NCBI GenBank assembly: GCA_030629485.1
Contig: DAOVOW010000028.1
Span: forward strand, 1 to 11,380
Reading direction: 5' to 3'
From: a bacterium
GTDB lineage: Bacteria > Zixibacteria > MSB-5A5 > GN15 > FEB-12
DNA length: 11,380 nucleotides
Below, in pieces: positions 1 to 11,380 of this stretch; positions within the stretch are counted from its first letter, which is position 1, and every line of letters starts with the position of its first letter. A program made the translations under genes and the position numbers. The notes below the pieces were generated by a model. The model ran no database searches. It saw nothing but the letters and a program-made list of their open reading frames with translations, and was not told the DNA's origin.

Positions 1-1022
1 ACGCCACTCAAAGCAACTTTGATGTTCGGGTTGAGGTCATAATCCAGCTTGCAGCTATACGACCATCCTGAGAGAGAGTTGTTGGGCAGTCTGTCGGGGC
101 TACCCGGCAGCACATCGCTGGTAACAGCAGAGGGTCGGCGGTCGCGATGGTAGCGACGTTCAATCGAACCGAAAAAGAAAGCGTTCTGTATACCGGGGAG
201 AGGGCCGCCCAAAGTGGCCGAGTACCAGTTCTGGTCGTAAACCTGGTCGGTGACCACCTCGGCCGTTCCGGAAAGCTTGTCACCACCTGACTGTGTGATG
301 ACATTGACGATACCGGAGGTAACGTGACCGTACTCGACCGGGAATCCACCCGATATTACAGCAATCTCCTTGATGGCATTGTTGCTGATGTTGCCGGTCG
401 AGGTTCCGGTGAGCGGGTCCTGTTGAGAATGGCCGTCCACATAGAAGGCAACCTCAGAAGGGCGCCCCCCGCGGATGAACAACTCCGGAGTGTTGGTGTA
501 CTCCCTGCTCGATCGATTTCCGCCACGGAAGCTCTGGATGGCGGCAACCACGCCCGATTGTATGCCAACCACATCTTCAAACCCGCGGGTGGGCATGGCC
601 AGAAGTTCATCGTCTCTGACAATCTGTATAGACGCGGTCTTGTCCTTGATGACCATCGGACGTTCGGCCGTGACCTTGATGATCTTGCCGATGTCGGCTG
701 CTTTGGAGCTCACGGCCATGTCGTGATAACTGGCCAGATCAGCGGAGACCTCCACATTGCTGATCTCCACCGTGGCATAACCAACAGCCGTGATCACCAA
801 AGTGTACGTTCCTACCGGAACATTGTGGACAGTATAGATACCATCCTGGTCAGCCACTGCTCCCATGTCGGTGTCTTTTACCGATACTGTTGCACCCACC
901 ACCGGCTGATCGGTATCGGCGTCCGTGATCTCGCCGGTTATTTTGCCGACCACGGACCCGAACACGGTGCCTCCCGACAGGCATAGCAACAGTACGATAA
1001 TCGGGATAAGTTTCAGGTTCAT
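1..1022 (-). CDS. TonB-dependent outer-membrane receptor with carboxypeptidase-regulatory-like domain (C-terminus outside window)
   Basis: This is the first 340 codons of a minus-strand gene that is open to the left edge. Residues 1-22 form a Sec signal peptide (short K4 n-region, hydrophobic IPIIVLLLCL, cleavage probably after VFG). Residues ~26-105 are a carboxypeptidase-regulatory-like beta-sandwich (TDQPVVGATVSV, DQDGIYTVHNVPVGTYTL, VGYATVE). Residues ~118-250 look like a TonB plug domain, with DELLAMPTRGFEDVVGIQSG, LFIRGGRPSEVAFYVDG and GFPVEYGHVTSGIVNVIT. The beta-barrel begins after ~255 and is cut off. Such receptors import large ligands across the outer membrane using TonB energy; the ligand cannot be told here. 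The start is supported by AGGAGT (plus-strand 1029-1034) seven bases before the ATG. I see no frameshift in the visible part. The family call is firm; substrate and exact subfamily are unknown. Confidence 0.9.
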   Translation of the reverse strand, partial: MNLKLIPIIVLLLCLSGGTVFGSVVGKITGEITDADTDQPVVGATVSVKDTDMGAVADQDGIYTVHNVPVGTYTLVITAVGYATVEISNVEVSADLASYHDMAVSSKAADIGKIIKVTAERPMVIKDKTASIQIVRDDELLAMPTRGFEDVVGIQSGVVAAIQSFRGGNRSSREYTNTPELFIRGGRPSEVAFYVDGHSQQDPLTGTSTGNISNNAIKEIAVISGGFPVEYGHVTSGIVNVITQSGGDKLSGTAEVVTDQVYDQNWYSATLGGPLPGIQNAFFFGSIERRYHRDRRPSAVTSDVLPGSPDRLPNNSLSGWSYSCKLDYDLNPNIKVALSG

Positions 1023-1197
1023 ATCTTTACTCCTAAAAGATGTTGTAATTGTCTGTTTACCGTGCGTTCCTTCGACGGTTCGTTAGCTACATCCTTATGC
1101 TTCAATCCTCCTTTTCCCTATGTAGTATTTGTCCTTGCAGGTCTCTATACTCCTTACTTATTCGTCTACATGCTATTTAGTGCAAAAAGGCATGAAT

Positions 1198-1224
1198 TTG
1201 TCAATCAAAAAATTATGCTAAAAT
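1198..1224 (+). promoter_or_regulatory. Candidate plus-strand promoter toward larE
   Basis: TTGTCA at 1198-1203 is followed by TGCTAAAAT at 1216-1224, an extended -10 (TGn plus TAAAAT, five of six to TATAAT). The 15-base spacer is short, but an extended -10 tolerates a poor -35. It would give a leader of about 450 bases before larE. No other good promoter is visible nearer the operon. Confidence 0.35.
1199..1204 (-). promoter_or_regulatory. Possible -35 box of the TonB receptor gene
   Basis: The minus strand reads a perfect TTGACA here, about 180 bases upstream of the receptor ATG. The matching -10 is weak (TAAATA with about 19 bases of spacing), so this is only a candidate. It overlaps the -35 of a plus-strand promoter candidate. 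Confidence 0.3.
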
Positions 1225-1560
1225 CGCTCATTTATCTGGGGATATACCGGATAATCCACACCCGAAATGACTGCGCATTTCTCCAACCGTGCTTTTCTTG
1301 CCGTCAAGCTCAGGTCTGCGGCGTTTCGCTCGCCACCGACAAAGTCAGATTTGCGACCGACACACTGCTTTTGTGAGTTTCATCAATGGCTTTGTCCTGC
1401 CGAGCTTCCGGATCGTATTAGAAAAATCGAAGTCGGCATTCTTCGATCAACTGCTATTCCATGCCGCCCCCTGCAGCTTGTCACGCCGTCGAAACCGGTG
1501 GTCACAAAAAAGAGAACCTGATGGGTTTCAACACGTTACGATATGGGTAAGGCGTGAGTT
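1225..1560. other. Region without a recognisable gene upstream of larE
   Basis: All frames either carry stops or give compositionally implausible peptides rich in R, S, C and F. I see no tRNA or rRNA signature, no clear terminator and no riboswitch I can name. If transcribed from the candidate promoter at 1198-1224, it would be the long leader of the lar operon. Confidence 0.4.
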
Positions 1561-1684
1561 GGTGGCAGATGGACTGCTTTGCGGCGGCATCTCCAAGGGC
1601 GAAGTGAGTTCCGGCCTTGCCCACCGGCGATTCAACGAGTATCTTGACAGTGTGAACAACAAACCCGAGGACTGGATGTCATGA
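1289..1684 (+). CDS. Doubtful short ORF overlapping the larE start
   Basis: This frame is open for 131 codons and ends in TGA sharing ATGA with the larE start codon, the same junction type as larB/larC. Only the last ~45 residues (from about VADGLLCGGISKG to NNKPEDWMS) look protein-like. The first part is rich in R, S, C and F and resembles translated non-coding DNA. There is no convincing ribosome-binding site for the first ATG; an internal GTG near 1561 is possible. I do not recognise a family. It could be the 3' remnant of a degraded gene, a short coupling peptide, or chance. The coordinates give the maximal ORF, not a supported start. Confidence 0.2.
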   Translation: MLFLPSSSGLRRFARHRQSQICDRHTAFVSFINGFVLPSFRIVLEKSKSAFFDQLLFHAAPCSLSRRRNRWSQKREPDGFQHVTIWVRRELVADGLLCGGISKGEVSSGLAHRRFNEYLDSVNNKPEDWMS

Positions 1685-2529
1685 CCGAACCCCAGGCCAA
1701 GCAGGCGAGCGAACAGGGAAATCCCGAATTGAACGCGAAGCTCCAGCAGTTACGAAACTCACTATCGGCAATGGAAAGCGTTCTGGTCGCCTTCTCAGGC
1801 GGGGTTGACAGCACTTTTTTACTAAAGGTGGCTTCCACTGTGTTGGAAGATCGGGTTATGGCGGTTACCGCCGAGTCCGACACGCTGCCCAAAGCCGAAC
1901 TGGATTTGGCCACGGCCACGGCTGCCGCTTTTGGGGTGCGTCACCTGGTAGTGCACACCGACGAAATGTGCGATCCCGATTTTGTGGCCAACCTGCCGGA
2001 CCGATGTTATCACTGTAAAAAGACGCTCTTTGGACGCTTGACGGAGTTGGCTAAAGAATTCGGTTTCGAGAAGGTGGTGGAAGGATCGAATCTCAGTGAC
2101 CTCGATGATTATCGGCCCGGGTTCAAGGCAATTGAGCAGTTTTCGGTTCTTAGCCCGTTAAAGGATGCGAGACTGACCAAAGAGGACATCAGAGTTTTGT
2201 CCAAAGAAATGAACCTGCCCACCTGGGACAAACCTGCCGCACCCTGCCTGTCCTCGCGCATTCCGTACGGCAGCATTATCACCAAAGAGAAACTCATGCG
2301 AATCGAGCGGTCCGAAAGTTACTTGCGCAGCTTGGGACTGACGGTCCTTCGCGTGCGAGATCACGACGACGTCGCACGGATCGAAGTCCCCCCGGAGCAA
2401 ATCGCCTGGTTGCTCGACGAGTCCCGGCGGGCAGTGATTACCGAGAAACTGAAGTCGTACGGTTATCAATACGTAACCGTCGACCTTCTCGGCTTCCGAA
2501 GTGGCAGTATGAACGAGGCACTTAGGTAA
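1681..2529 (+). CDS. larE: LarE, ATP-dependent sulfur transferase for the nickel-pincer cofactor
   Basis: LarE activates the carboxylates of pyridinium-3,5-biscarboxylic acid mononucleotide (P2CMN) by adenylation and replaces oxygen with sulfur, giving the dithio form (P2TMN) in the cytoplasm. The 282-residue product has the PP-loop SGGVDS at 39-44, an EGSNLSDLDDYRPG segment at 134-147, and PCLSSRIPYG at 188-197. Cys189 matches the position of the sacrificial cysteine of the Lactobacillus enzyme. A CYHC pair (Cys109, Cys112) is also present. Family knowledge says three-cysteine LarE proteins bind a [4Fe-4S] cluster that relays sulfide rather than sacrificing a cysteine, so this protein is probably of that type. 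GAGG at 1667-1670 lies ten bases before the ATG. It is first in larE-larB-larC, eight bases before larB. PP-loop relatives such as NadE and GuaA lack the cysteine pattern. Confidence 0.93.
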   Translation: MTEPQAKQASEQGNPELNAKLQQLRNSLSAMESVLVAFSGGVDSTFLLKVASTVLEDRVMAVTAESDTLPKAELDLATATAAAFGVRHLVVHTDEMCDPDFVANLPDRCYHCKKTLFGRLTELAKEFGFEKVVEGSNLSDLDDYRPGFKAIEQFSVLSPLKDARLTKEDIRVLSKEMNLPTWDKPAAPCLSSRIPYGSIITKEKLMRIERSESYLRSLGLTVLRVRDHDDVARIEVPPEQIAWLLDESRRAVITEKLKSYGYQYVTVDLLGFRSGSMNEALR

Positions 2530-2537
2530 AGGTAATA

Positions 2538-3296
2538 ATGGACAAGAATAGTCTCCGCTGGCTTCTGGAGAGTCTCAGCGAGGGCAAGGTCGATGTTGAC
2601 CAGGCGCTGGAGCGACTCAAGGGTCTGCCGTACGACGATATCGGATTTGCCAAGCTCGATACCCACCGCGATCTGAGGCGCGGTTTTCCTGAGGTGGTTT
2701 TCTGTATGGGCAAGACGGCGGCGCAGGTGTCAGAGATCATGACTGCGCTGGGTCGGGGGGAACGTCTGGTCATGGCCACCAAAGCCACCGCCGACCTTTA
2801 CGCTGCCGTCAAAGAACGCTGTCCTGAGGCTGTCTACCATGAGGCCGCTCAGATTATCCTGAGCGGACCGATGCCTGAGCCCCGCACTGAGAAGAACATC
2901 GCTGTGGTCAGCGCCGGTACGTCTGATATGCCGATTGCCGAAGAAGCCGCGGTCACGGCCGAATCGATGGGCAACCCGGTCGAACGTCTGTACGATATCG
3001 GGGTCGCCGGGATTCATCGCCTGCTCCACAACAAAGAGAAGCTGTTTGCGGCCAATGTCATCATCGTTGTCGCCGGGATGGAAGGAGCCCTGGCCTCGGT
3101 CGTGGGAGGGATGGTCAGCAGCCCGGTGATCGCGGTGCCCACCTCGATTGGTTACGGCGCCAGTTTCAATGGACTCGCGCCGCTGTTGTCTATGCTCAAC
3201 TGCTGCGCGCCGGGTGTCGTGGTAGTAAATATCGATAACGGTTTCGGCGCCGGTTATTCAGCGGCCGTAATCAATCAAATGGATACCGAACGATGA
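2538..3296 (+). CDS. larB: LarB, P2CMN synthase (NaAD carboxylase/hydrolase)
   Basis: LarB carboxylates C5 of the nicotinate ring of nicotinic acid adenine dinucleotide with CO2 and releases AMP, giving P2CMN, the first committed step of NPN synthesis. The 252-residue product has a helical N-terminus and a PurE-like (AIR carboxylase) domain from ~119, with IAVVSAGTSDMPIAEEA at 121-137, YDIGVAGIHRL at 152-162, IIVVAGMEGALASVVGG at 175-191, PVIAVPTSIGYGASFNG at 196-212, and LNCCAPGVVVVNIDNGFGAGY at 220-240. The second cysteine of CC (Cys223) fits the family's catalytic cysteine, which adds to the pyridinium ring. Length is normal. An AAAGGT ribosome-binding site sits close before the ATG, and the stop overlaps the larC start by ATGA, so larB and larC are probably translationally coupled. 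Confidence 0.94.
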   Translation: MDKNSLRWLLESLSEGKVDVDQALERLKGLPYDDIGFAKLDTHRDLRRGFPEVVFCMGKTAAQVSEIMTALGRGERLVMATKATADLYAAVKERCPEAVYHEAAQIILSGPMPEPRTEKNIAVVSAGTSDMPIAEEAAVTAESMGNPVERLYDIGVAGIHRLLHNKEKLFAANVIIVVAGMEGALASVVGGMVSSPVIAVPTSIGYGASFNGLAPLLSMLNCCAPGVVVVNIDNGFGAGYSAAVINQMDTER

Positions 3297-4483
3297 AGCT
3301 GGCTTATTTCGATTGTTTCGCCGGTGTCTCAGGTAACATGATTCTGGGCGCGCTGGTCGATGCCGGAGTCGCCCTCGGCGATCTCAAGATCGAACTGGCC
3401 AAGCTGAAACTCGACGGCTTCGATCTCACGGCCAAGAAAGTGGTGAAGAACGGTATCACCGGTACTCACGTTGAGGTGATCACCGAGGAATCACATGTTC
3501 ATCGCCACCTGAAGGAGATCGAGGAGATAATCAACCAGTCGGATTTGGCGGCTGACCTCAAGGACAAAAGCAAACGAGTATTCCAAATGCTGGCGAAGGC
3601 CGAGGCAAGAGTCCATAACACTACGCCTGACAATATCCACTTCCATGAAGTCGGCGCTCTGGATGCTATCGTTGACATTGTTGGTTCCGTGATCGGCCTG
3701 AGTCTACTCGGTATCGATATGGTGGTGGCGTCGCGAATCCATGTCGGTACCGGATTTGTCGAGTGTCAACATGGAAAAATCCCTGTGCCGGCCCCGGCGA
3801 CTATCGAGATACTGAAAGGAGCGCCGCTGTTCTCAACAGGGATTGAAGCCGAACTAACAACACCCACCGGCGCAGCCATTCTCAAGACTTTGGCCAAAGG
3901 ATTCGGCCCGATGCCGGCGATGACTGTCGACTGCACCGGCTACGGCGCCGGGAGTCGCGATCTGGAAATACCGAACCTGTTGCGCCTGGTGGTCGGCACG
4001 GCGATCGGTTCAGCTTACCTAACAGATCAGGTTATACTTATCGAAACCAACGTTGACGACATGAACCCCGAGATTCTGGGTTATGTCACCGAACGCGTCA
4101 TGGAACATGGCGCCCTCGACGTCTGGCTGACACCGATCAACATGAAGAAGAATCGTGTCGGCGCCAAACTATCGGTTTTGGCATCCGTTGCCGACGCTGA
4201 ATCTCTGGTCGATATCATCTTTGCCGAGACAACCACCTTGGGGGTTCGTGTGCAGCGCATCGAACGCCGCAAGCTGGTGCGTGAGGTGCGGCTCGTTCAC
4301 ACTCGTTACGGGGATATCAAGACAAAAGTATCACTGACGAACGGCAAGGTTCGCCACGCAACTCCCGAATACGAAGACTGCAAGGCGGTGGCCCGACGCG
4401 AAGGTGTTCCCCTGATGGAAGTGTATGAGGAAGTCCGTCGCACGGCGTCAGAGCAAATCTTGTCAGGAGGCCTGTCCTCCTGA
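3293..4483 (+). CDS. larC: LarC, CTP-dependent nickel insertase for the nickel-pincer cofactor
   Basis: LarC inserts Ni(II) into P2TMN, forming carbon-nickel and sulfur-nickel bonds in a CTP-hydrolysing reaction. The 396-residue product carries the family landmarks in order: YFDCFAGVSGNMILGAL at 5-21, the metal-rich HVHRHLKEI at 68-76, IHFHEVGALDAIVDIVG at 115-131, HGKIPVPAPAT at 160-170, ELTTPTGAAILKTL at 187-200, ETNVDDMNPEILGY at 251-264, LDVWLTPINMKKNR at 275-288, and TTLGVRVQRIERRKL at 314-328. It is one uninterrupted reading frame, whereas the Lactobacillus plantarum gene is split into larC1/larC2 and needs a programmed frameshift. It starts inside the larB stop (ATGA). The last codons lie within a perfect hairpin terminator. 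Confidence 0.94.
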   Translation: MKLAYFDCFAGVSGNMILGALVDAGVALGDLKIELAKLKLDGFDLTAKKVVKNGITGTHVEVITEESHVHRHLKEIEEIINQSDLAADLKDKSKRVFQMLAKAEARVHNTTPDNIHFHEVGALDAIVDIVGSVIGLSLLGIDMVVASRIHVGTGFVECQHGKIPVPAPATIEILKGAPLFSTGIEAELTTPTGAAILKTLAKGFGPMPAMTVDCTGYGAGSRDLEIPNLLRLVVGTAIGSAYLTDQVILIETNVDDMNPEILGYVTERVMEHGALDVWLTPINMKKNRVGAKLSVLASVADAESLVDIIFAETTTLGVRVQRIERRKLVREVRLVHTRYGDIKTKVSLTNGKVRHATPEYEDCKAVARREGVPLMEVYEEVRRTASEQILSGGLSS

Positions 4484-4492
4484 CATTTTCTT
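4461..4492 (+). terminator. Rho-independent terminator overlapping the larC stop codon
   Basis: TGTCAGGAGG (4461-4470) and CCTCCTGACA (4476-4485) pair perfectly over ten bases around the loop CCTGT, followed by TTTTCTT (4486-4492). The larC stop TGA (4481-4483) lies inside the right arm, so the hairpin doubles as coding sequence for the last residues of LarC. It should end or attenuate lar operon transcription before the downstream AT-rich genes. Confidence 0.8.
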
Positions 4493-4574
4493 ATCCCCAA
4501 GAACCAGTCGGGCAAGCCTGGAAACCACCGCAAGCGGATGAGCCACCCGGCCATTATCTATTCAAGAGGAGAAT

Positions 4575-4976
4575 ATGAAAAAAATTAGACTGTGTATAGC
4601 ATCAAATGACGGCAATAATATTGCTAAAACCCATATGGGCGATACGGAGTATTTCTATATTTATGATATTTTCGCAAATTCAAAACATGTGTTTGTAGAA
4701 AAAAGGACTAATACTGCAAAAAATATGGGACATGCAAAAGTCGGAAAAATGAAAGGAGTTATTAAGATAATCGAAGACTCAGATGTTCTCATAGCCCGAC
4801 AGAAAAGTCCAAATTTCATAAGAATCGCAAAAAAAACAAAATATCAACCTGTAGTAGTAAAAACTGAGAAGATATCAGACGTACTAATGACATTGTGTAA
4901 GTCATTCGATGAAATATATGAACATACTACAAGAAGGAAAAACGGTGAAGTGTTTGATACTATACTTGAATTATAG
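4575..4976 (+). CDS. NifX/NifB-C-type dinitrogenase iron-molybdenum cofactor-binding domain protein
   Basis: The 133-residue product fits the FeMo-cofactor-binding fold shared by NifX, NafY and the NifB C-terminus. It shows the N-terminal strand and loop IRLCIASNDGNNIAKTHMGDTEYFYIYD (parts at 4-31), the VEKRTNT turn at 41-47, His53 in MGHAKVGKM, and the GVIKIIEDSDVLIARQ helix-strand at 61-76. Stand-alone members occur in many non-nitrogen-fixing bacteria, so nitrogenase is not implied; the ligand may be another metal cluster. AGAGGAG at 4565-4571 precedes the ATG by three bases. It follows the larC terminator by about 80 bases and opens the AT-rich block: line 4801-4860 has 16 G+C of 60, against 35 of 60 at 3961-4020 in larC. 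I see no clear promoter of its own. Confidence 0.75.
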   Translation: MKKIRLCIASNDGNNIAKTHMGDTEYFYIYDIFANSKHVFVEKRTNTAKNMGHAKVGKMKGVIKIIEDSDVLIARQKSPNFIRIAKKTKYQPVVVKTEKISDVLMTLCKSFDEIYEHTTRRKNGEVFDTILEL

Positions 4977-4989
4977 CAATCCATAGAAT

Positions 4990-5050
4990 GCATAACAAAT
5001 CGTTGTACCTGGCCACTTTTTCGCTGCGCTACAAAGCGGCAAGTGACCGG
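4990..5050. repeat. Partial attC-like imperfect hairpin
   Basis: Thirteen bases after the preceding stop codon the sequence reads GCATAAC (4990-4996), an R''-type core (RYYYAAC), then AAATCGTTG. An imperfect hairpin follows: CTGGCCACTT (5009-5018) against AAGTGACCGG (5041-5050), with eight Watson-Crick pairs, one G-T and one mismatch, and an inner CGCT/AGCG pair (5022-5025 and 5035-5038). The position just after a gene and the left-half layout resemble an integron attC site. The expected right-hand GTTRRRY core and its complementary arm are not found downstream, so it is at best a remnant. Confidence 0.3.
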
Positions 5051-5079
5051 TTTCCAGATTTTCTTTAAATAACTATAAT
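5051..5079 (+). promoter_or_regulatory. Candidate promoter for the ThrRS editing-domain gene
   Basis: TTTCCA (5051-5056, four of six to TTGACA) is followed after 17 bases by a perfect TATAAT (5074-5079). It would give a leader of roughly 175 bases. The leader contains TCAATGG (5116-5122) and CCATTGA (5145-5151), which could pair. The surrounding DNA is AT-rich, which raises the chance of a false match. Confidence 0.4.
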
Positions 5080-5261
5080 TGTATATTCTATGATGTAGCT
5101 TGACAATAGAATGAATCAATGGACAGTTACCGTAGCAATTCAACCCATTGAACATAAGAGTGCACGATAGTTTCAGTTGTAGGAGAAGCTGCCGGATTTT
5201 CAGATAGAACTCTATAAATGGAAAGAGTGTTTTGGCAAGCACGTTAATAGAAGGAGCCATA

Positions 5262-5672
5262 ATGAAACTATTAATGATCTATGCAACCGAGTTCCATTAT
5301 AAGACAAGCCTGAAAAGTCTTGAGTCTGTACCTGAAGCAACGGGAGAAAATACAATTGAAAATGCTGTGGTGGGTTTTATTCATGTAGAAGAAAAAGATG
5401 AAGAGCATCTTGCTGATGTTGAGACCAAATTGATCAAAAACCTCAAATGGGCCGCGAGAAAAAACAATACAGAAAGAATAGTACTACACTCTTTCACTCA
5501 TTTATCTGAAAGCAAGGCTTCGTCTGAAATTACAAAGCAATTGCTTAATAATTCAGAGCAGCGATTAAAGAATGCAGACTACGAGGTCTATCAAACACCA
5601 TTCGGTTACTTTCTTGATCTGAATGTCAAGGCGCCAGGATATCCATTAGCCAGGTTATTCAAAGACATATAG
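5262..5672 (+). CDS. Free-standing archaeal-type threonyl-tRNA synthetase editing domain protein
   Basis: The 136-residue product resembles the N-terminal editing domain of archaeal ThrRS, a D-aminoacyl-tRNA deacylase-like fold that removes serine mischarged onto tRNA-Thr. Landmarks are the first strand MKLLMIYATEFHYK (1-14), VVGFIHVEEKD (36-46), the LHSFTHLSESKAS segment (75-87) with conserved His80, the TPFGYF turn (112-117), and GYPLARLFKDI at the C-terminus (126-136). No synthetase catalytic core follows. Compared with archaeal enzymes as I remember them, the lysine after FGYY is Leu118, the histidine of GHPL is Tyr127, and a downstream glutamate is Arg131, so editing activity is uncertain. 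The start at 5262 is chosen because AAGGAG (5251-5256) precedes it by five bases; an upstream in-frame TTG at 5232 has no such site. It may act on another substrate or be a trans-editing relic. Confidence 0.7.
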   Translation: MKLLMIYATEFHYKTSLKSLESVPEATGENTIENAVVGFIHVEEKDEEHLADVETKLIKNLKWAARKNNTERIVLHSFTHLSESKASSEITKQLLNNSEQRLKNADYEVYQTPFGYFLDLNVKAPGYPLARLFKDI

Positions 5673-5715
5673 TCGATGTTTCCATAAAGGAGCAGGTCTA
5701 ACACGATATTACTTC

Positions 5716-5907
5716 TTGAATATTGCCGAAGTCGGAGAGAAAACTGAAGACTGGAGGATGGTATTAAACGGAGTGGCTACAGGTTGGCGCACCACGGCAG
5801 AAGATAAACGAGCATACCTCAACAAAAACCCGACGGAAGAACAAATTCATGGCTCGTCCCAATCATGGAAGTTGATCAGGGTCATTGGCCATAAAGTGAG
5901 GTTGTGA
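5716..5907 (+). CDS. Unrecognised short ORF, start uncertain
   Basis: The frame gives 63 residues from a TTG, with tryptophans in EDWRMV, TGWRTT and SQSWKLI and a basic end VIGHKVRL. The composition looks protein-like and I do not recognise a family. The only good ribosome-binding site (AAAGGAG, 5686-5692) is 23 bases before the TTG and has no ATG, GTG or TTG at proper spacing in this frame. The first ATG in frame is 5758, directly abutting GGAGG with no spacer. Either the start is unusual or the 5' part was lost by a frameshift. The stop overlaps the next ATG by one base (TGATG), which suggests it is, or was, part of the same operon. Confidence 0.4.
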   Translation: MNIAEVGEKTEDWRMVLNGVATGWRTTAEDKRAYLNKNPTEEQIHGSSQSWKLIRVIGHKVRL

Positions 5908-6473
5908 TGGAAATTAATAAATGGAAGGCGGCTCTCGAGCGAGAAAGAAAAAGTAAAGATGTGTTTTTTGCAACGCATTGGCAATCGCCGGTACCATTAG
6001 AAGACAAATCGAGGTTTTTGGGGCTTGCATATTTCCCTCCAAACCATAATTACAGATTTGACCTTCAGCTTCATGAATATAAGGATAGAAAAGTGTTGCA
6101 AATTCAAGATACCACTGGCAACACGCGGGAGTTTTTGCGATGGGGTGAATTTAGGTTCAGGGTAGGTAATGAGAAGTGCACACTTCAAGCATATAAGAGT
6201 GCACCTGATGAGGATCGACTTTTTGTGCCGTTTAAGGACGCTACCAGCGGTAAGGAAACATATGGAGCGGGGCAGTATCTCGATCTCGATTATGTGACAG
6301 ATCGTACTCCAGGAGGAATGTGGATGTTGGACTTTAATAGAGCTTATAATCCATGGTGTGCATATAGCGCGAATTATTCCTGTCCATATGTACCACCTGA
6401 AAATTGGCTTAGGGTCCCTATACTTACTGGTGAGAGAAATTATCTTCTAAGAGGAATAGAGGTAAAAGAATAA
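5907..6473 (+). CDS. DUF1684 family protein
   Basis: The 188-residue product carries the conserved order of the DUF1684 family: an N-terminal basic helix (KWKAALERERKSKD), FLGLAYFPPNHNYRFDL at 37-53, TTGNTREFLRWGEFRF at 69-84, LFVPFKDATSGKETYGAGQYLDLD at 105-128, LDFNRAYNPWCAYS at 141-154 and SCPYVPPENWLRVPILTGE at 158-176. The biochemical function of the family is not established. It has no signal peptide, so it is probably cytoplasmic. GAGG (5898-5901) lies five bases before the ATG at 5907; an in-frame GTG one codon earlier is less well placed. It overlaps the preceding ORF and the next gene by one base each, so these genes are likely co-transcribed. The G+C content is low like its island neighbours. 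Confidence 0.85.
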   Translation: MEINKWKAALERERKSKDVFFATHWQSPVPLEDKSRFLGLAYFPPNHNYRFDLQLHEYKDRKVLQIQDTTGNTREFLRWGEFRFRVGNEKCTLQAYKSAPDEDRLFVPFKDATSGKETYGAGQYLDLDYVTDRTPGGMWMLDFNRAYNPWCAYSANYSCPYVPPENWLRVPILTGERNYLLRGIEVKE

Positions 6474-6778
6474 TGGCTAAAGAAATCTCAGAAGAAGATG
6501 TCCATGGCGCAATAGCACAGATAATGCATCCTGCGATTGACCGCACATTGGTTGACTTGGGAATGGTAAAGGGAGTATCGATTAAAGAAAACAAAGTGAC
6601 TGTTACTTTGGCGTTTCCCATTCCTAATATTCCTATCGGGGATTATCTTGTGAATAGTGTAAGAGAGACAATAGAAAGTCTTGGCGCAGACGTCGAAGTA
6701 AAAATAACGGTGATGGCAAAAGAAGAACTGAATAAATTCCTGGCTATGGAACAGGAAAGCTGGAAAGGGCCTATGTAA
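6473..6778 (+). CDS. DUF59/MIP18-type (metal-sulfur cluster assembly) small protein without cysteine
   Basis: The 101-residue product resembles the DUF59 domain found in SufT, PaaD, eukaryotic MIP18 and the N-terminus of Mrp/ApbC, which take part in Fe-S cluster assembly. It shows an N-terminal helix (ISEEDVHGAIAQIM), the equivalent of the DPE-IVDLGLV motif as HPAIDRTLVDLGMV (19-32), strands VSIKENKVTVTLAF (35-48), the turn PIPNIPIGDYL (49-59), and a helix-strand end (VRETIESLGADVEVKITV). The acidic DPE is changed to HPA, and the protein has no cysteine at all, although family members often carry one after the central strand. It may therefore be a structural or adaptor variant. It overlaps the DUF1684 stop (TAATG) and ends the AT-rich block. 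Confidence 0.75.
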   Translation: MAKEISEEDVHGAIAQIMHPAIDRTLVDLGMVKGVSIKENKVTVTLAFPIPNIPIGDYLVNSVRETIESLGADVEVKITVMAKEELNKFLAMEQESWKGPM

Positions 6779-6882
6779 TTCAATTGGAGATTTGATAGAA
6801 TCACCAATGTGTGCTTGTAGTGCTCCCGATTAGTCAAGCCGATCTTAAGAGAGTTTTGCGGCTGAGTTGATAGGTTTCTTCG

Positions 6883-6916
6883 GCGGGTGGGCCACGCGGC
6901 GTCCGACATCCCCCGC
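6883..6916. repeat. GC-rich inverted-repeat segment in the convergent intergenic region
   Basis: GCGGG (6883-6887) and CCCGC (6912-6916) enclose a GC-rich stretch containing GTGGGCCAC. It lies between the convergent DUF59 and S41 genes and has no coding potential I can support. It might be a small dispersed element; only one copy is seen here. Confidence 0.25.
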
Positions 6917-6946
6917 AAAAAAAGAGCGCCGATGGTCGGCGCTCTT
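6917..6946 (-). terminator. Rho-independent terminator of the S41 protease gene
   Basis: AAGAGCGCCGA (6922-6932) and TCGGCGCTCTT (6936-6946) pair perfectly over eleven bases around a three-base loop. On the minus strand the hairpin is followed by a run of seven T (plus-strand A at 6917-6923). It lies 23 bases after the S41 stop codon. It lacks a T run on the plus strand, so it may serve the convergent plus-strand genes only weakly. Confidence 0.9.
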
Positions 6947-6968
6947 GAAGCAAACCTTGCCGTGTGAC

Positions 6969-8777
6969 CTAATTGAGTTCTGCTTTCGTCTGGCCGCGGA
7001 CCATTAAATCCGAATACTGACCCGGCGTCGACAGAATCTCGACGGCCCTCATCACCGTCTTGTCAGTCTTGAGAATAAGTCCCTCGTAGACGCCGCGCTG
7101 ACCGACAACAGAAGAGAGAATGTCACGTTTGATTGAGCGGCTGATGTAGTCGCGCGACTGGTCGAAATCATCACTCTTCTCAACCTCGACAAGCTTTTCC
7201 AGTTCCTCCAGCGCTCTCTCGAATAACTCCTGGGTTTCTTCTTCTTCAACACTTTCGCGCAGCTCTTCGAGCGCCACCTGCAACGACGTTTTGTATTCGA
7301 ACTCCTTTTCCGCGATGAAAGTACGGAACTGTTCAAGAATCTCGTCGCTCACTTCAAACGAGGCATTGACATCGGGATGTTCGGCGACATACTGAATGGC
7401 GAAATCAAAGAACAGCGACTTCCGCTCGAGATTTATCTCAATCGGCTTATACAGGTCCGACTCGATCTCGATGTCCGGCACGATCCCACCGCCCCCGTAG
7501 ACGATTCGGCCGCCGTTGGTGTAGAACACTTCTTCCTCAGAGATGGCCAACGAATCGCTCTCTTCATCTTCGTCAGAATCCAGGGCAAGATCGGAGCCTG
7601 AACTGCGTTTGGCTTGTGTCTCCGGTTTCTGGATACAGCGTCCCGAAGGCACGTAATACTTGGCCGTGGTCAGCTTCAGCGCCATCGAGCCATCGTTGGC
7701 AATCTGGAATATCTGCTGCACCAGTCCCTTACCGTAGGTGGGGGCGCCGACGATGAGTCCGCGGTCCCAATCCTGAATGGCGCCCGAGACGATCTCACTG
7801 GCCGATGCGGTGCCTTCGTTCACCAGGACAATCAGTGGTTTGTCCTCGAACAGCGGCGCCCGCTCGGAATAGTAATGACGTTCACTGGTTTCGTAGCGCC
7901 CTTTGGTATAGACGATCTCGCGCCCCTGTTGCAGGAACAGTTCGGCGGTCTCTTTAGCCTGGTCGAGTAGTCCGCCGCCGTTACTGCGCAGGTCGAGAAT
8001 AAGCGCCGAGACGTTCTGATCGTTCAAGTCGCTGATTGCATCTCTGAGTTCGTGCGAAGTTTCTTCGGCGAAACGCGAGAGACGGACGTAGCCGATGTCG
8101 GTCCCCGGAACTACCCCGGCATACGGTACCGATTTCAATTCGATCACCGCTCGCTCCACCTCAAAGTCCATCAGGTCGGCGATACCGGCCCGTTTGATCG
8201 TAAGCACCACCGAGGTCCCGGCCGTGCCGCGCATTAACTTGGCGCCGTCGGCCGTCTTCATACCCTCGGTCGACTCGCCGTCGATGGCCCATATAATATC
8301 ACCGGCGCGAAGGCCTTTGCGATAGGCCGGGGTGCCTTCGATCGGCGTGATGATGATGATACGATTGTCACGAGAGTCTATCTGCATGCCCAACCCTTCG
8401 TACTTGCCGTGGGTGGACTCCATCAGCGCCTCGTACGACGAACGCTCCATCAGGATGGAATATCGATCAAGATCGGTAAGCATTCCTCTGATGCCCGCCT
8501 TGATAATCTCGTCGGTGTCGACATCCTCCATGTATTGATTTCTGATATTGAAAGCAGTCGAAGAGAGCTTCTTGACATCCTTCAAAAAGCTGTCTCGTTT
8601 GCGACGGGTTGTTTCGCGGCTATCGGTGGTGACCGGTTCGGTGTTAATATGCGTGGTGTCGGCCCACATCACCGGTTCGGTCGTAGTTACCTGTTCGGCT
8701 TCAAGAGACCCTATTTCAGCAATAAAGGCGATAGCAAAAACCGTTACTCCGACCAACAGAACCATATATCGAATCAT
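6969..8777 (-). CDS. S41 family C-terminal processing protease with PDZ domain
   Basis: This is a CtpA/Prc-like serine protease that cleaves periplasmic or membrane proteins near their C-termini. The 602-residue product begins with a signal peptide or anchor (MVLLVGVTVFAIAFIAEIG, ~5-23). A variable linker follows, then an N-terminal helical domain (~62-120), a PDZ domain (~124-200; GLGMQIDSRDN, GLRAGDIIWAIDG) and the protease core. The core holds LDLRSNGGGLLDQA (261-274), NEGTASASEIVSGA (320-333) with Ser325 as nucleophile, and PTYGKGLVQQ (346-355) with Lys350 as general base, 25 residues apart as in E. coli Prc. A helical, Glu-rich C-terminal extension (~470-602) is additional. The start at 8777 is chosen over an upstream in-frame ATG at 8819 because GGAGG precedes it by five bases. 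The gene is monocistronic, with its own promoter and terminator. Confidence 0.93.
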   Translation of the reverse strand: MIRYMVLLVGVTVFAIAFIAEIGSLEAEQVTTTEPVMWADTTHINTEPVTTDSRETTRRKRDSFLKDVKKLSSTAFNIRNQYMEDVDTDEIIKAGIRGMLTDLDRYSILMERSSYEALMESTHGKYEGLGMQIDSRDNRIIIITPIEGTPAYRKGLRAGDIIWAIDGESTEGMKTADGAKLMRGTAGTSVVLTIKRAGIADLMDFEVERAVIELKSVPYAGVVPGTDIGYVRLSRFAEETSHELRDAISDLNDQNVSALILDLRSNGGGLLDQAKETAELFLQQGREIVYTKGRYETSERHYYSERAPLFEDKPLIVLVNEGTASASEIVSGAIQDWDRGLIVGAPTYGKGLVQQIFQIANDGSMALKLTTAKYYVPSGRCIQKPETQAKRSSGSDLALDSDEDEESDSLAISEEEVFYTNGGRIVYGGGGIVPDIEIESDLYKPIEINLERKSLFFDFAIQYVAEHPDVNASFEVSDEILEQFRTFIAEKEFEYKTSLQVALEELRESVEEEETQELFERALEELEKLVEVEKSDDFDQSRDYISRSIKRDILSSVVGQRGVYEGLILKTDKTVMRAVEILSTPGQYSDLMVRGQTKAELN

Positions 8778-8782
8778 CGAAA

Positions 8783-8787
8783 CCTCC
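8783..8787 (-). promoter_or_regulatory. Ribosome-binding site deciding the S41 protease start
   Basis: The minus strand reads GGAGG five bases before the ATG at 8777. The upstream ATG at 8819 has no such site and would add 14 charged residues before the hydrophobic signal segment. That ATG also falls just beside the -10 of the promoter candidate at 8818-8845. Confidence 0.8.
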
Positions 8788-8817
8788 GTTTCAGTGTGCT
8801 CGTATCCATCCAGCGTC

Positions 8818-8845
8818 AAGATAACACACCGAGTCGCTTTGTCAA
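8818..8845 (-). promoter_or_regulatory. Sigma70-type promoter of the S41 protease gene
   Basis: On the minus strand a perfect TTGACA (8845-8840) is followed after 16 bases by TATCTT (8823-8818). Transcription would start near 8811 and leave a short leader to the ribosome-binding site at 8783-8787. Confidence 0.65.
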
Positions 8846-9136
8846 GTTGGAGGACGGCTGATATCGATGTGTATCTCTTTGAACTTTATACGCTTACAAT
8901 ACACCGTTGGTTGCCGAAGGTTCCCCGGCCAACGGCTATCGGGATACAAACGGTTGTCGTTCGGCTGCTTACCGGAAGGAACTACTCGGCTTGTTCGCCG
9001 GATTCTAAGCAGTTTTTATCATGATAATCTGTCTCCGACCCTAACTTTGTTGTAGGTATCGGTTTGGCTTGAGGATGCACGACTAAAGCAAAAAAGATTG
9101 TCCTTTTCATGCACAATCTCGTATGGTTAGAACCGT
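8846..9136. other. Divergent intergenic region with palindromes
   Basis: I see no gene here. It holds a perfect 12-base palindrome, TTATCATGATAA (9016-9027), and an inverted repeat AGATTGT (9095-9101) / ACAATCT (9113-9119) with an 11-base loop, ending 17 bases before the next start codon. Either could be an operator. The inverted repeat could also form a small mRNA hairpin near the start. No convincing plus-strand promoter was found; GATAAT at 9023-9028 lacks a good -35. Confidence 0.45.
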
Positions 9137-9916
9137 ATGCAGTTCCACAAACGTCTCATCTTCGCTTGGATGCTCAATCTGCTTTTGCCGGGTTTGGGCC
9201 ATTTCTACTGGAGGGAATATGCCTTCGGGCTGTTCATATTCCTGGTCATGTTGTTGGCTTCTGTGCTGTACGTGGCCTCGTTCTTCGTACCGTTACCGGG
9301 CGCGGTCACATGGTTGGTGCTTGGATTGCCGATCATGTTCTACGGCTTCACGTTTGTGGATCTGGCCCGGACAGCGCGTATCAAACGTGTCTCGGTAAAT
9401 CGTGCCACCCAGGCGGCGGTGGTCATCGTTGCCGCCGGTTTAGTATACCAGGCTCTATCGCCGTCCGCTTTGCTCAATTTCGGATGGCGCAACCGACCTG
9501 AAATCTACACCATGCCACACAACCGATTGAACCCTCTGTATGCCACCGGTGATGTTCTCAAGGCCAGTTCGCTCGCCTACACCGTCAGGATCGCCTTCGT
9601 CGATCGACCGATATTGCATCGACTGCCTCAGCGATTCGAGATGGTCCGCTTTGAAGAGGCCTCGGGACGACGTCGCACCGGCTTCGTGGTCGGTTTGCCG
9701 CTGGAGGAGGTCTTGATTGTCGGTGGTTTGGTGGTGGCGAACGGCCTCCCCGACCCGCGCGATGGTCCTCCCGGTATTACTCTCACTGGTGATTGGCCGT
9801 TGACCGGGACCGACCAGTTCTCTATCTTGGTGGCTACGGTCAGCATGGGTTCTCTGGACAAAGTGTATGAGATACCGCTGACGCAACTGGTGGGAAAGGT
9901 GGATAGACTTTTCTAA
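9137..9916 (+). CDS. Membrane protein with degenerate signal peptidase I-like domain
   Basis: The N-terminal half of this 259-residue protein is membrane-embedded, with hydrophobic segments at ~8-21, 30-52, 57-76 and 92-108, starting with LNLLLPGLGHFYWREYAFG (small-integral-membrane style). The C-terminal half follows the signal peptidase I (S26) layout. MPHNRLNPLYATGD (126-139) sits where PSxSMxPTLxxGD is expected. TGFVVGLPLEEVLIVGGLVVANG (parts at 181-203) sits where KRVVGLPGDxVxIxxGxLyvNG is expected. SMGSLDKVYEIPLTQLVGKV (236-255) replaces GDNRxxSxDSRxxGxVPxxxIxGK. The nucleophile Ser-Met is Asn-Arg and the general-base lysine is lost, so peptidase activity is not expected. It may bind or scaffold without cleaving. 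The ribosome-binding site is weak; the stop is one base before the next ATG. Confidence 0.6.
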   Translation: MQFHKRLIFAWMLNLLLPGLGHFYWREYAFGLFIFLVMLLASVLYVASFFVPLPGAVTWLVLGLPIMFYGFTFVDLARTARIKRVSVNRATQAAVVIVAAGLVYQALSPSALLNFGWRNRPEIYTMPHNRLNPLYATGDVLKASSLAYTVRIAFVDRPILHRLPQRFEMVRFEEASGRRRTGFVVGLPLEEVLIVGGLVVANGLPDPRDGPPGITLTGDWPLTGTDQFSILVATVSMGSLDKVYEIPLTQLVGKVDRLF

Positions 9917-9917
9917 A

Positions 9918-10577
9918 ATGTACAGATTTGTAATCTTCGATCTCGATGGCACGCTGATCGATTCTTCAGACGGGGTGGTGGAGGCTGTCAATTATTCGCT
10001 GCAGCAGATGGGTGAACCGACCCAGCCGCCGGAGATCATCAAACCATACATAGGTTACCCTTTGGCCAAGATGTATCCCGAGTTCACCGATGCGCCGTAC
10101 GAGCAGTTGTATGAACATTTTACGGTCAAGGCCGCTCAGACGGTTGTGACATCGACGTATGCATTACCGTATGCAGATGAAGTTTTGAAGCAACTGTACG
10201 CGGACGGCCGAACGTTGGCGGTGGCCACAACCAAGATCAAGAGACATGTTGACAGCATCCTCGACAAACTCGGCTGGTGCAAGTACTTCTCGGCAGCGGT
10301 GGGCGGTGATGAAGCTCCACGGTTCAAGCCGGACCCGGCGATTTTCCGTCTCACTCTCGAACGATTACAAGCAAAGCCGTCCGATGCTATGGTCGTTGGT
10401 GATACCGTGAACGATGTACACGCCGCCCAGGCCGTCCCGATGACGGTGACGGCTGTGGCGTCACCTTATGGACACCGTGATGAACTTATGGCGTCCCAGC
10501 CGGATCACTTCATCGAGGATATCCGGCAGCTTCCGGATATTCTACAACTCGCTGACGACGGAGGTGAAACGCGTTAG
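9918..10577 (+). CDS. HAD superfamily hydrolase, phosphoglycolate phosphatase-like
   Basis: The 219-residue product is a subfamily I HAD phosphatase with a helical cap. Motif I is FDLDGTLIDS (7-16; nucleophile Asp8, acid/base Asp10), motif II is AVATTK (101-106), motif III is the lysine of RFKPDP (Lys137) and motif IV is VVGDTVNDVHAA (159-170; Asp162 and Asp166 for Mg2+). The cap (~17-85) is a four-helix type as in Gph and PpaX. The exact substrate (phosphoglycolate, pyrophosphate or another small phosphate ester) cannot be decided from sequence. It begins one base after the preceding stop, so the two genes are very likely co-transcribed, but this gives no clear functional link. It ends 69 bases before the next gene. 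Confidence 0.87.
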   Translation: MYRFVIFDLDGTLIDSSDGVVEAVNYSLQQMGEPTQPPEIIKPYIGYPLAKMYPEFTDAPYEQLYEHFTVKAAQTVVTSTYALPYADEVLKQLYADGRTLAVATTKIKRHVDSILDKLGWCKYFSAAVGGDEAPRFKPDPAIFRLTLERLQAKPSDAMVVGDTVNDVHAAQAVPMTVTAVASPYGHRDELMASQPDHFIEDIRQLPDILQLADDGGETR

Positions 10578-10646
10578 TGATTCAATCTGTCGAGGCTGTC
10601 TCGTCAGACGCTATGTAATCTCAACGTGTGACTCGTGAGGATACCA

Positions 10647-11147
10647 ATGAAGAAGCTCTTTGTGAATTCATTCAAGACCAATATCGGTACCGTCCGCACG
10701 GCCGCAGCCGACAAGGGTCTGGTGCTTATCTGTCTGCCGGGAGAGTCGAGGCGATATTTCAATGAGCGCATCGAGCAACTTTTCAGCGGTCATCAGGTTC
10801 AAAGCGGGGGAGAGGTCAATCGTGAAGCTCAGCGACAGATCATCGATTACCTGAACGGCAAACGGACCAGGTTTGACCTGCCGCTGGATCTTCGCGGCAC
10901 GCCGTTTCAGAAGACAGCCTTGCGGCGGGTGGCGCGCATTCCTTACGGCAAGGTGAAGACGTATGGGGAAATCGCGGCCGCCATCGGTAGGCCGCGAGCG
11001 GCGCGGGCAGTCGGTTCCGCCAACGCTCGTAACAACCTGCCGCTGGTGATACCGTGTCATCGAGTCGTTGCTACGAACGGCTTGGGAGGCTATGGTGGCG
11101 GTCTGGCCTTGAAAAAGAGGCTATTGAAAATGGAAGGGAGTTTGTAA
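10647..11147 (+). CDS. ogt: Methylated-DNA--protein-cysteine methyltransferase (O6-alkylguanine-DNA alkyltransferase)
   Basis: This protein repairs O6-alkylguanine by irreversible transfer of the alkyl group to its own cysteine. The 166-residue product has a divergent N-terminal domain (~1-80) and a canonical DNA-binding/active-site domain: GTPFQKTALRRVARIPYGKVKTYGEIAAAIG (parts at 84-114), RPRAARAVGSANARNN (115-130) with the helix-turn-helix recognition helix and arginine finger, and VIPCHRVVATNGLGGYGGGLALKKRLL (parts at 134-160) with acceptor Cys137. There is no AdaA-type methyl-phosphotriester domain, so it is Ogt-type rather than Ada. The start at 10647 is preferred over the in-frame GTG at 10635 because GAGG (10637-10640) lies six bases before the ATG and overlaps the GTG. 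It stands between a HAD gene and an M29 peptidase gene on the same strand. Confidence 0.92.
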   Translation: MKKLFVNSFKTNIGTVRTAAADKGLVLICLPGESRRYFNERIEQLFSGHQVQSGGEVNREAQRQIIDYLNGKRTRFDLPLDLRGTPFQKTALRRVARIPYGKVKTYGEIAAAIGRPRAARAVGSANARNNLPLVIPCHRVVATNGLGGYGGGLALKKRLLKMEGSL

Positions 11148-11220
11148 GCTCGCTTCCGATCCCTCAAGCGTATCGAAAATGCAGTTCTGATTTAGCCCAT
11201 AACGATAATGGAGAACGAAG

Positions 11221-11380
11221 ATGGATCCACGTGTGGAAAAACTGGCCAGGGTTCTAGTGCACTATTCGGTCAGACTCAAGAAAGGCCAACTGGTCAAGAT
11301 CGCCGGTGAAGTGGCGGCGCTGCCGTTGATAAAGGCAGTCTTCGCAGAAGCCGTGCGGGTCGGGGCGCACCCCTACACCC
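11221..11380 (+). CDS. M29 family aminopeptidase (N-terminus only)
   Basis: The first 53 codons are open to the right edge. The peptide MDPRVEKLARVLVHYSVRLK, then KGQLVKIAGEVAALPLIKAV and AEAVRVGAHPYT, matches the N-terminus of the M29 thermophilic metalloprotease family (aminopeptidase T, AmpS, PepS), where an LVxYSxxxKxGxxVxI pattern and an R-x-GAxP segment are typical. The catalytic glutamates and histidines lie further on and cannot be checked. GGAG (11210-11213) is seven bases before the ATG. It follows the alkyltransferase gene by 73 bases, with no terminator seen between them. Confidence 0.8.
   Translation, partial: MDPRVEKLARVLVHYSVRLKKGQLVKIAGEVAALPLIKAVFAEAVRVGAHPYT

Follow-up and report, generated by a model that had tools for sequence, protein, structure and literature searches.

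Between a lar operon and a convergent S41 protease gene in a Zixibacteria genome (MSB-5A5; GN15; FEB-12) lies a short AT-rich block in which a freestanding relative of the threonyl-tRNA editing domain is accompanied by proteins that recall iron-sulfur (Fe-S) chemistry, and the question is how these genes came together and what such a domain does in a bacterium. The block occupies positions 4575 to 6778 of the window, by which we mean the whole analysed stretch of 11,380 nucleotides (GenBank assembly GCA_030629485.1, contig DAOVOW010000028.1, positions 1 to 11,380, forward strand). It encodes a NifX-fold protein, the editing-domain protein (hereafter ED), a DUF1684 protein and a DUF59 protein. 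The reading that we favour, tentatively and at close to an even chance, is that of a transferred accessory cassette whose ED would be a repurposed DTD-fold hydrolase or binder of acyl-adenosine, tied to Fe-S/thiol redox.

The G+C content of the block is 0.390, and the lowest value among 373 host windows of equal length (2204 bases) is 0.488 (standard deviation of the windows 0.019). The host reference comes from the same genome and comprises 110 kb in 17 unmasked contigs; three of the 20 contigs fetched were all N and were dropped. A sharp fall of G+C after larC, with recovery by the S41 gene, had been noted in the first-pass annotation from 16 of 60 bases at 4801-4860 against 35 of 60 at 3961-4020. 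Both counts were reproduced, and 500-base windows over 4501-6750 range from 0.35 to 0.45, the host level being regained by the S41 gene. G+C at third codon positions (GC3) is 0.26-0.39 in the NifX-fold, ED, DUF1684 and DUF59 genes against a host mean of 0.67, each gene lying under all 350 host slices, and a codon bias as strong as theirs was found in 0, 1, 0 and 0 of these slices, respectively. The codon comparison proposed in that annotation therefore places the block genes outside host usage, while the flanking lar, S41, HAD and MGMT genes are host-like in both codon usage and GC3. The AT-rich block is real and foreign.

The limits of the foreign DNA were drawn by comparison with congeners. 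In blastn, genome G045 (locus L125) aligns to the window up to position 4510 (88% on this side) and again from 6902 (93%), and the interval between them, 4511-6901, is without alignment. At this place G045 carries instead a gene of normal G+C for a protein of 409 amino acids (aa) with no Pfam or NCBIfam match, which is not present in the stretches of G043, G044, G046 and G047. G043 and G044 have in common an aldo/keto reductase with a ferredoxin domain (76% identical), G044 holding several further genes, and in G046 a DUF4405-related gene adjoins S41, with 26-29% identity to its DUF4405 counterpart in the ED cluster of Bacteroidales (best E 2e-25). The slot content is known for these four congeners (G043-G046), the slot not being seen in G042 and G047. 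Since the congeners have different genes there, the convergent larC/S41 junction (4481-6971) is a variable slot, and it may be a recurrent insertion slot. ED was found in none of the six other genomes of the genus (completeness 69-99%).

The segment 5230-6816 (forward strand), with the run ED-DUF1684-DUF59, recurs in G038 (locus L076), a member of another genus, at 83.8% DNA identity and with different flanking genes. The ratio of nonsynonymous to synonymous substitution rates (dN/dS) of ED is 0.13 against L074 and 0.17 against L076, and between the window and L076 it is 0.28 for DUF1684 and 0.29 for DUF59. The core of three genes is thus under purifying selection and common to two genera as a unit. 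DUF1684 of the window's kind was found in two of the 54 genomes of the family, the window's own and G038. The identity of ED to that of the window is 90% in G018, 82% in G038, 74% in G049 and 84% in G113, with S41 protease identities of 65%, 65%, 67% and 51%, respectively. ED is closer in G113, from another family of the class, than in G049 from the same family (84% vs 74%), and for S41 the order is reversed; judged from these identities, the similarity of ED is out of step with relatedness. G018, which carries the closest ED, has three stretches at a G+C of 0.37-0.38, and an AT-rich relative of G018 in the same family is a possible source of the cassette, the direction being one that we infer. 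No integrase or transposase was found among the block open reading frames scanned, no repeat pair flanks the interval, and ED was not found in plasmid and phage records, nor in viral contigs by exact peptide patterns, which detect close relatives only. Of the usual marks of a horizontally transferred island, foreign composition, slot difference and discordant similarity are present, and mobility genes and flanking repeats are absent. The transfer that had been suggested on first inspection is borne out by the foreign composition, the different gene in the slot of G045, the lack of ED in the six congeners and the core run in another genus; comparison thus shows that an AT-rich accessory cassette, some 2.4 kb in length, was acquired horizontally and occupies a variable slot. 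As such the cassette is an ordinary case of gene transfer.

ED (5262-5672, forward strand, 136 aa) matches the tRNA-Thr_ED family PF08915 with E 5e-41 and 140 bits against a cut-off of 30.2. Its open frame closes at the stop codon 5670-5672 and is not fused to a ThrRS core or an anticodon-binding domain. An AlphaFold2 model (mean pLDDT 94.2) has the Pyrococcus ThrRS editing domain 4rrr as its best PDB match, with a template-modelling (TM) score of 0.93; DTD chains reach at most 0.74 among the matches listed, and the DTD family PF02580 gives no match in ED at E up to 0.1. A protein search with ED returned 3504 matches, of which the best 120 all belong to PF08915 and are short, with 132-151 aa; the protein searches admitted only 0.55-1.75 times the query length, so that any longer protein with a fused ED would have been missed. 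With the Pyrococcus domain as query, 93 matches were obtained, mostly partial ThrRS and archaeal wherever the organism was named. ED is patchy in its own phylum, being found by genome scans in 17 of 132 genomes. A scan of GTDB genomes, which finds close relatives only, located it at 56 places, most of them in Bacteroidales. Besides Zixibacteria, depositors' labels place it in Ignavibacteriota, Chlorobiota, Cloacimonadota, Fermentibacterota, Caldisericota, Acidobacteriota and Aminicenantes. In a tree, 68 bacterial ED rows are separated from eight archaeal ThrRS domains with an SH-aLRT support of 100 and a very long branch. The archaeal ThrRS editing domain (PDB 4rrq/1y2q) is like ED in fold, length, PF08915 score over the cut-off and the equivalent of His83, and differs in that ED is freestanding and bacterial, is set off by the long branch and has Tyr120, Lys121 and Glu134 replaced. 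DTD has a related fold and, like ED, a residue other than Lys at the place of Lys121 (Met, PMC4491819), but it is a separate family by profile, and most hosts of ED carry a whole DTD as well. On sequence evidence, ED belongs to a bacterial freestanding DTD-fold family that split from archaeal ThrRS editing domains and has an altered pocket. No description of this family or its pocket was found in the literature searched, most subscription papers lying outside it.

The window's ED has Phe117, Leu118 and Arg131 where archaea have Tyr120, Lys121 and Glu134. Across 188 bacterial rows (the best 120 of the 3504 matches plus 68 of the 70 loci, partly the same proteins), Phe stands at Tyr120 and Arg at Glu134 in all 188 and Leu at Lys121 in 183, while in the archaeal rows that have a residue at these places, about 80, Glu is found in 75, Tyr in 77 and Lys in 78. 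The equivalent of His83 is kept in 188 of 188. In the available text of PMC4491819, Glu134 of the other subunit holds the alpha-amine of the substrate in the Pyrococcus enzyme, Lys121 places the catalytic water, and with Met in its stead this water is shifted and three archaeal enzymes suffer a severe drop in activity; the 2'-OH of the tRNA activates water, and catalysis in the DTD fold relies on this 2'-OH and on backbone atoms. ED has the PF08915 profile and the fold of the editing domain, but with key residues of the pocket exchanged, the tRNA proofreading to which the first-pass annotation had seen it point, and plain editing of Ser-tRNAThr in particular, look doubtful. That a removable Glu has given way to an invariant Arg suggests that another ligand has been selected for. 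A metal site at His76/His80 was also considered and dropped; the titles of PDB entries 4s02, 4s03 and 4s0i-4s0l have Pab residue 79 (equal to His76) altered together with 11, 42 or 123.

Replacement of a lost ThrRS editing domain or of DTD is not supported in general by the genomes that bear ED. In 14 of the 17, PF07973 was found in an open frame of about the length of a ThrRS (641-682 aa), the family being common to ThrRS and AlaRS and the assignment to ThrRS made by length; in G018 and G041 it occurs only in frames of other length, and in G091 not at all. A whole DTD is encoded in 15 of the 17, G018 having a fragment of 26 residues only, and the window's genome (G000, 83% complete) gave no match to PF02580. 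SepCysS over the TIGR02539 cut-off was found in none of the 17 ED-bearing Zixibacteria, with weaker matches in all 17 and in all 14 control genomes.

The genes around ED provide the second line of evidence. In 13 of the 70 ED loci (Zixibacteria 4, Ignavibacteriota 1, Cloacimonadota 1, Bacteroidales 7), a NifX-fold gene on the same strand is found no more than 2.5 kb from ED, and no locus has one on the opposite strand within 5 kb; 18 loci have at least one of NifX, MinD, DUF59 and HesB-like genes nearby. Pfam confirmed PF02579 for the NifX proteins of L022, L040, L042, L065, L066, L068, L075 and the window. Counted with PF02579, which is independent of our own profile, 58 places were found in the 17 ED-bearing Zixibacteria genomes and four of them are beside ED against about 0.09 expected (P about 2e-6 if the loci were independent, which the four are not fully). 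On the whole tree, the presence of a nearby NifX gene takes at the fewest six changes. DUF59 occurs near ED in a second phylum as well. The fullest clusters, in Bacteroidales, run DUF134, DUF5320, Di-Nase, two ferredoxin-MinD ATPases, Di-Nase, a flavoenzyme, sometimes a cupin-DUF59 protein and ED, followed by a methyltransferase, Di-Nase, MBL, an ARMT1-like protein, DUF4405 and CGGC. The flavoenzyme has coenzyme A (CoA)-disulfide reductase as its best NCBIfam matches, below the cut-off, and the Di-Nase protein of L051 matches the C-terminal part of the MrpORP model with E 5e-37, below the whole-protein cut-off. MrpORP is the Fe-S carrier of the orange protein (ORP) complex of Desulfovibrio (PMC6345978). 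Six Bacteroidales ED loci resemble the ORP cluster in having ferredoxin-MinD pairs and Di-Nase proteins, whereas that cluster, in the description available from PMC6345978, lists no ED; the window has neither of the paired ferredoxin-MinD genes, only the NifX-fold gene.

The window's own genes accord with this picture in part. The NifX-fold protein (4575-4976, forward strand, 133 aa) has a Di-Nase domain (PF02579, E 1.5e-9, passing the cut-off), and of its relatives in the fetched loci the nearest is the NifX protein from Ca. Tenebribacter (134 aa), with 31% identity over 119 aa. The DUF1684 protein (5907-6473, forward strand, 188 aa; PF07920, E 5e-45, passing the cut-off) contains a Cx7C pair, Cys151/Cys159, which is kept in L076. 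A Haloferax DUF1684 protein with a Cx7C motif is placed, as a candidate, in a thiol-relay group, and the same table lists a CoA-disulfide-reductase homologue (PMC9426492, as far as its available text goes); by analogy, the window's DUF1684 is a candidate thiol-relay protein. The DUF59 protein (6473-6778, forward strand, 101 aa) passes the cut-off of FeS_assembly_P/DUF59 (PF01883, E 8e-12) and has no cysteine. The standard DUF59/SufT Fe-S carrier has a conserved cysteine. Being without one, the window's protein may not be an Fe-S carrier of this standard kind. Cysteine is likewise absent from the DUF59 stretches close to ED in L076, L067 and L069, and L042 has a single one. The link to metal or Fe-S cofactors that the first-pass annotation had seen in two of the genes is partly supported, by the recurrence of a NifX-fold gene near ED in four phyla. 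The same annotation had counted five genes, the last three overlapping by single bases. Pfam recognizes four of them. The frame taken for the remaining gene (5716-5907) has no family match, and its L076 counterpart contains stops in all three forward frames and a gap of 7 bases; it is therefore most likely no gene, and 5673-5906 is probably a spacer. Both single-base overlaps exist (TGATG at 5907 and TAATG at 6473), and with four genes only that of DUF1684 and DUF59 is meaningful. Nor is the whole set a broadly conserved module, for the exact set was seen in only two genomes.

Under the favoured reading, ED would still hydrolyse or bind a 3'-acylated adenosine, with an acyl group that would lack a free amine or be negatively charged and would not be that of Ser-tRNAThr. 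It would serve Fe-S/thiol redox repair or the stress response of an anaerobe, with the NifX-fold protein, DUF59 and the putative thiol-relay DUF1684 as presumed partners and CoA-disulfide-reductase-like flavoenzymes in other genomes. Several points weigh against it. Tyr120 and Glu134 can be removed with activity and specificity kept, an earlier study saw partial activity of a Lys121 mutant, and DTD has Met at the place of Lys121 (all in the available text of PMC4491819); these dispensability results and the Met in DTD make the loss of side chains alone compatible with deacylase activity. In 52 of the 70 ED loci, the same strand carries no NifX, MinD, DUF59 or HesB gene within 2.5 kb. Flanks of 2.5 kb on either side were available for only 44 loci, seven of which have NifX. 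Unrelated genes surround ED in many loci of Bacteroidetes (Draconibacterium, Mariniphaga and their kin), and the profiles for NifX, MinD and others were built from the same neighbourhoods, which biases the counts towards the genes noticed first. Nor are the four Zixibacteria that have NifX close by independent, since their EDs come from one branch of the tree.

These points feed the most serious competitor, possible though not probable, in which ED is an ordinary trans-editing factor for mischarged tRNA (Ser-tRNAThr, or glycine, alanine or D-amino acid esters) and its neighbours are incidental. Such a role agrees with the fold of the archaeal ThrRS domain and its relation to DTD, with a His83 equivalent kept in all 188 bacterial rows, with a catalysis that depends on the tRNA 2'-OH and the backbone and with Met in place of Lys121 in DTD (PMC4491819), and with the many loci that lack a metal-related neighbour. 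It has to contend with the severe loss of activity on changing Lys121 to Met in three archaeal enzymes (PMC4491819), with the charge reversal from Glu134 to Arg that is invariant in the rows examined, with a patchy presence in the phylum, and with hosts whose ThrRS-length PF07973 frames and whole DTD leave no general gap to be filled. A more specialized editing context is already known: standalone tRNA-Thr-ED genes of archaea adjoin clade VII SepCysS and sulfur genes, and the domain is fused to some bacterial SepRS with its serine motif fully conserved (PMC5424206, PMC8762117, in their available text). The archaeal standalone proteins are like ED in being standalone and having sulfur-metabolism neighbours, which would make ED part of the archaeal SepRS/SepCysS system of cysteine coding. 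The ED-bearing Zixibacteria, however, have no SepCysS over the cut-off, and the serine pocket that, by the published description, is intact in the SepRS-fused domains is replaced in ED; for these genomes the proposal is largely refuted and we consider it highly improbable.

The cassette could also be a passive bundle of unrelated AT-rich genes with no joint function, which we regard as unlikely. The rarity of the exact set fits a bundle, as do the other genes that fill the slot in the congeners seen and an upstream NifX that differs from those of L075 and L076 (34-35% over 74 aa). A bundle accounts less readily for the one-base overlap of DUF1684 and DUF59, for the purifying selection on ED, DUF1684 and DUF59, and for the recurrence next to ED of NifX-fold genes in several phyla and of DUF59 in one further phylum. 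That the block is an artefact of composition, or that the contig is mis-assembled or mis-binned, deserves mention since the genome was assembled from a metagenome, in 437 contigs and 83% complete; with the block on one contig between host genes that are collinear with G045 on both sides, and with most of the AT-rich stretch found again in G038, it has very little to recommend it.

Some further features of the region may be recorded. A palindromic, terminator-like repeat lies 3' of larC at 4461-4485 (forward strand), immediately left of the foreign interval, and holds the palindrome GTCAGGAGGCCTGTCCTCCTGAC at 4462-4484. It has three perfect copies in the genome, the others being at C399:5795-5817 and C403:386-408, and one contig of the congener G047 (L129) has three copies, two of them with one base different. 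At the right edge, a terminator-like hairpin of the convergent S41 gene (6922-6946, reverse strand) is host sequence. No known RNA element was detected at gathering score in 4400-7000, and PADLOC found no defence-system match for the four proteins. Farther downstream, 9137-9916 encodes a 259-aa protein without a significant NCBIfam match, which adjoins the S41 gene in congeners G043-G047 as well.

Other neighbours of ED were seen in several loci. A small IscA/HesB-like gene follows ED by about 0.6-0.7 kb on the same strand in the Zixibacteria loci L082, L084, L085 and L086, with a weak NF038090 match below the cut-off. Flavoenzymes of the old yellow enzyme (OYE) type lie upstream of ED in L020, L067 and L068, that of L067 being closest to BaiCD, below the cut-off. 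A UbiE-like methyltransferase stands beside ED in L026, L040, L042, L069 and L074-L076, with a major facilitator superfamily (MFS) transporter in several, and L040 also has a 10TM permease of the ArsP_2 family nearby. Methyltransferase and transporter possibly indicate methylation and export of something; metalloid methylation and export, considered from the methyltransferase, MFS and ArsP_2 genes near some EDs, was left as too weak.

The family to which ED belongs is named for threonyl-tRNA editing; the search returned 3504 database proteins, and the examined members (the best 120) lack residues of that active site. Carried over to the bacterial freestanding family at large, the favoured reading becomes a bolder proposal, which we put forward as possible and rather doubtful: that the family is no serine proofreader, its pocket having been rebuilt for another acylated adenosine from the Fe-S/thiol chemistry of anaerobes, with ORP-like NifX/MinD proteins or DUF59 as partners. 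The ligand may then be, for instance, an aminoacyl-tRNA that is acidic or N-blocked, or a metabolite that contains adenosine. What is at stake is whether these bacteria connect Fe-S/thiol stress with the quality control of tRNA, or whether the family carries the wrong name.

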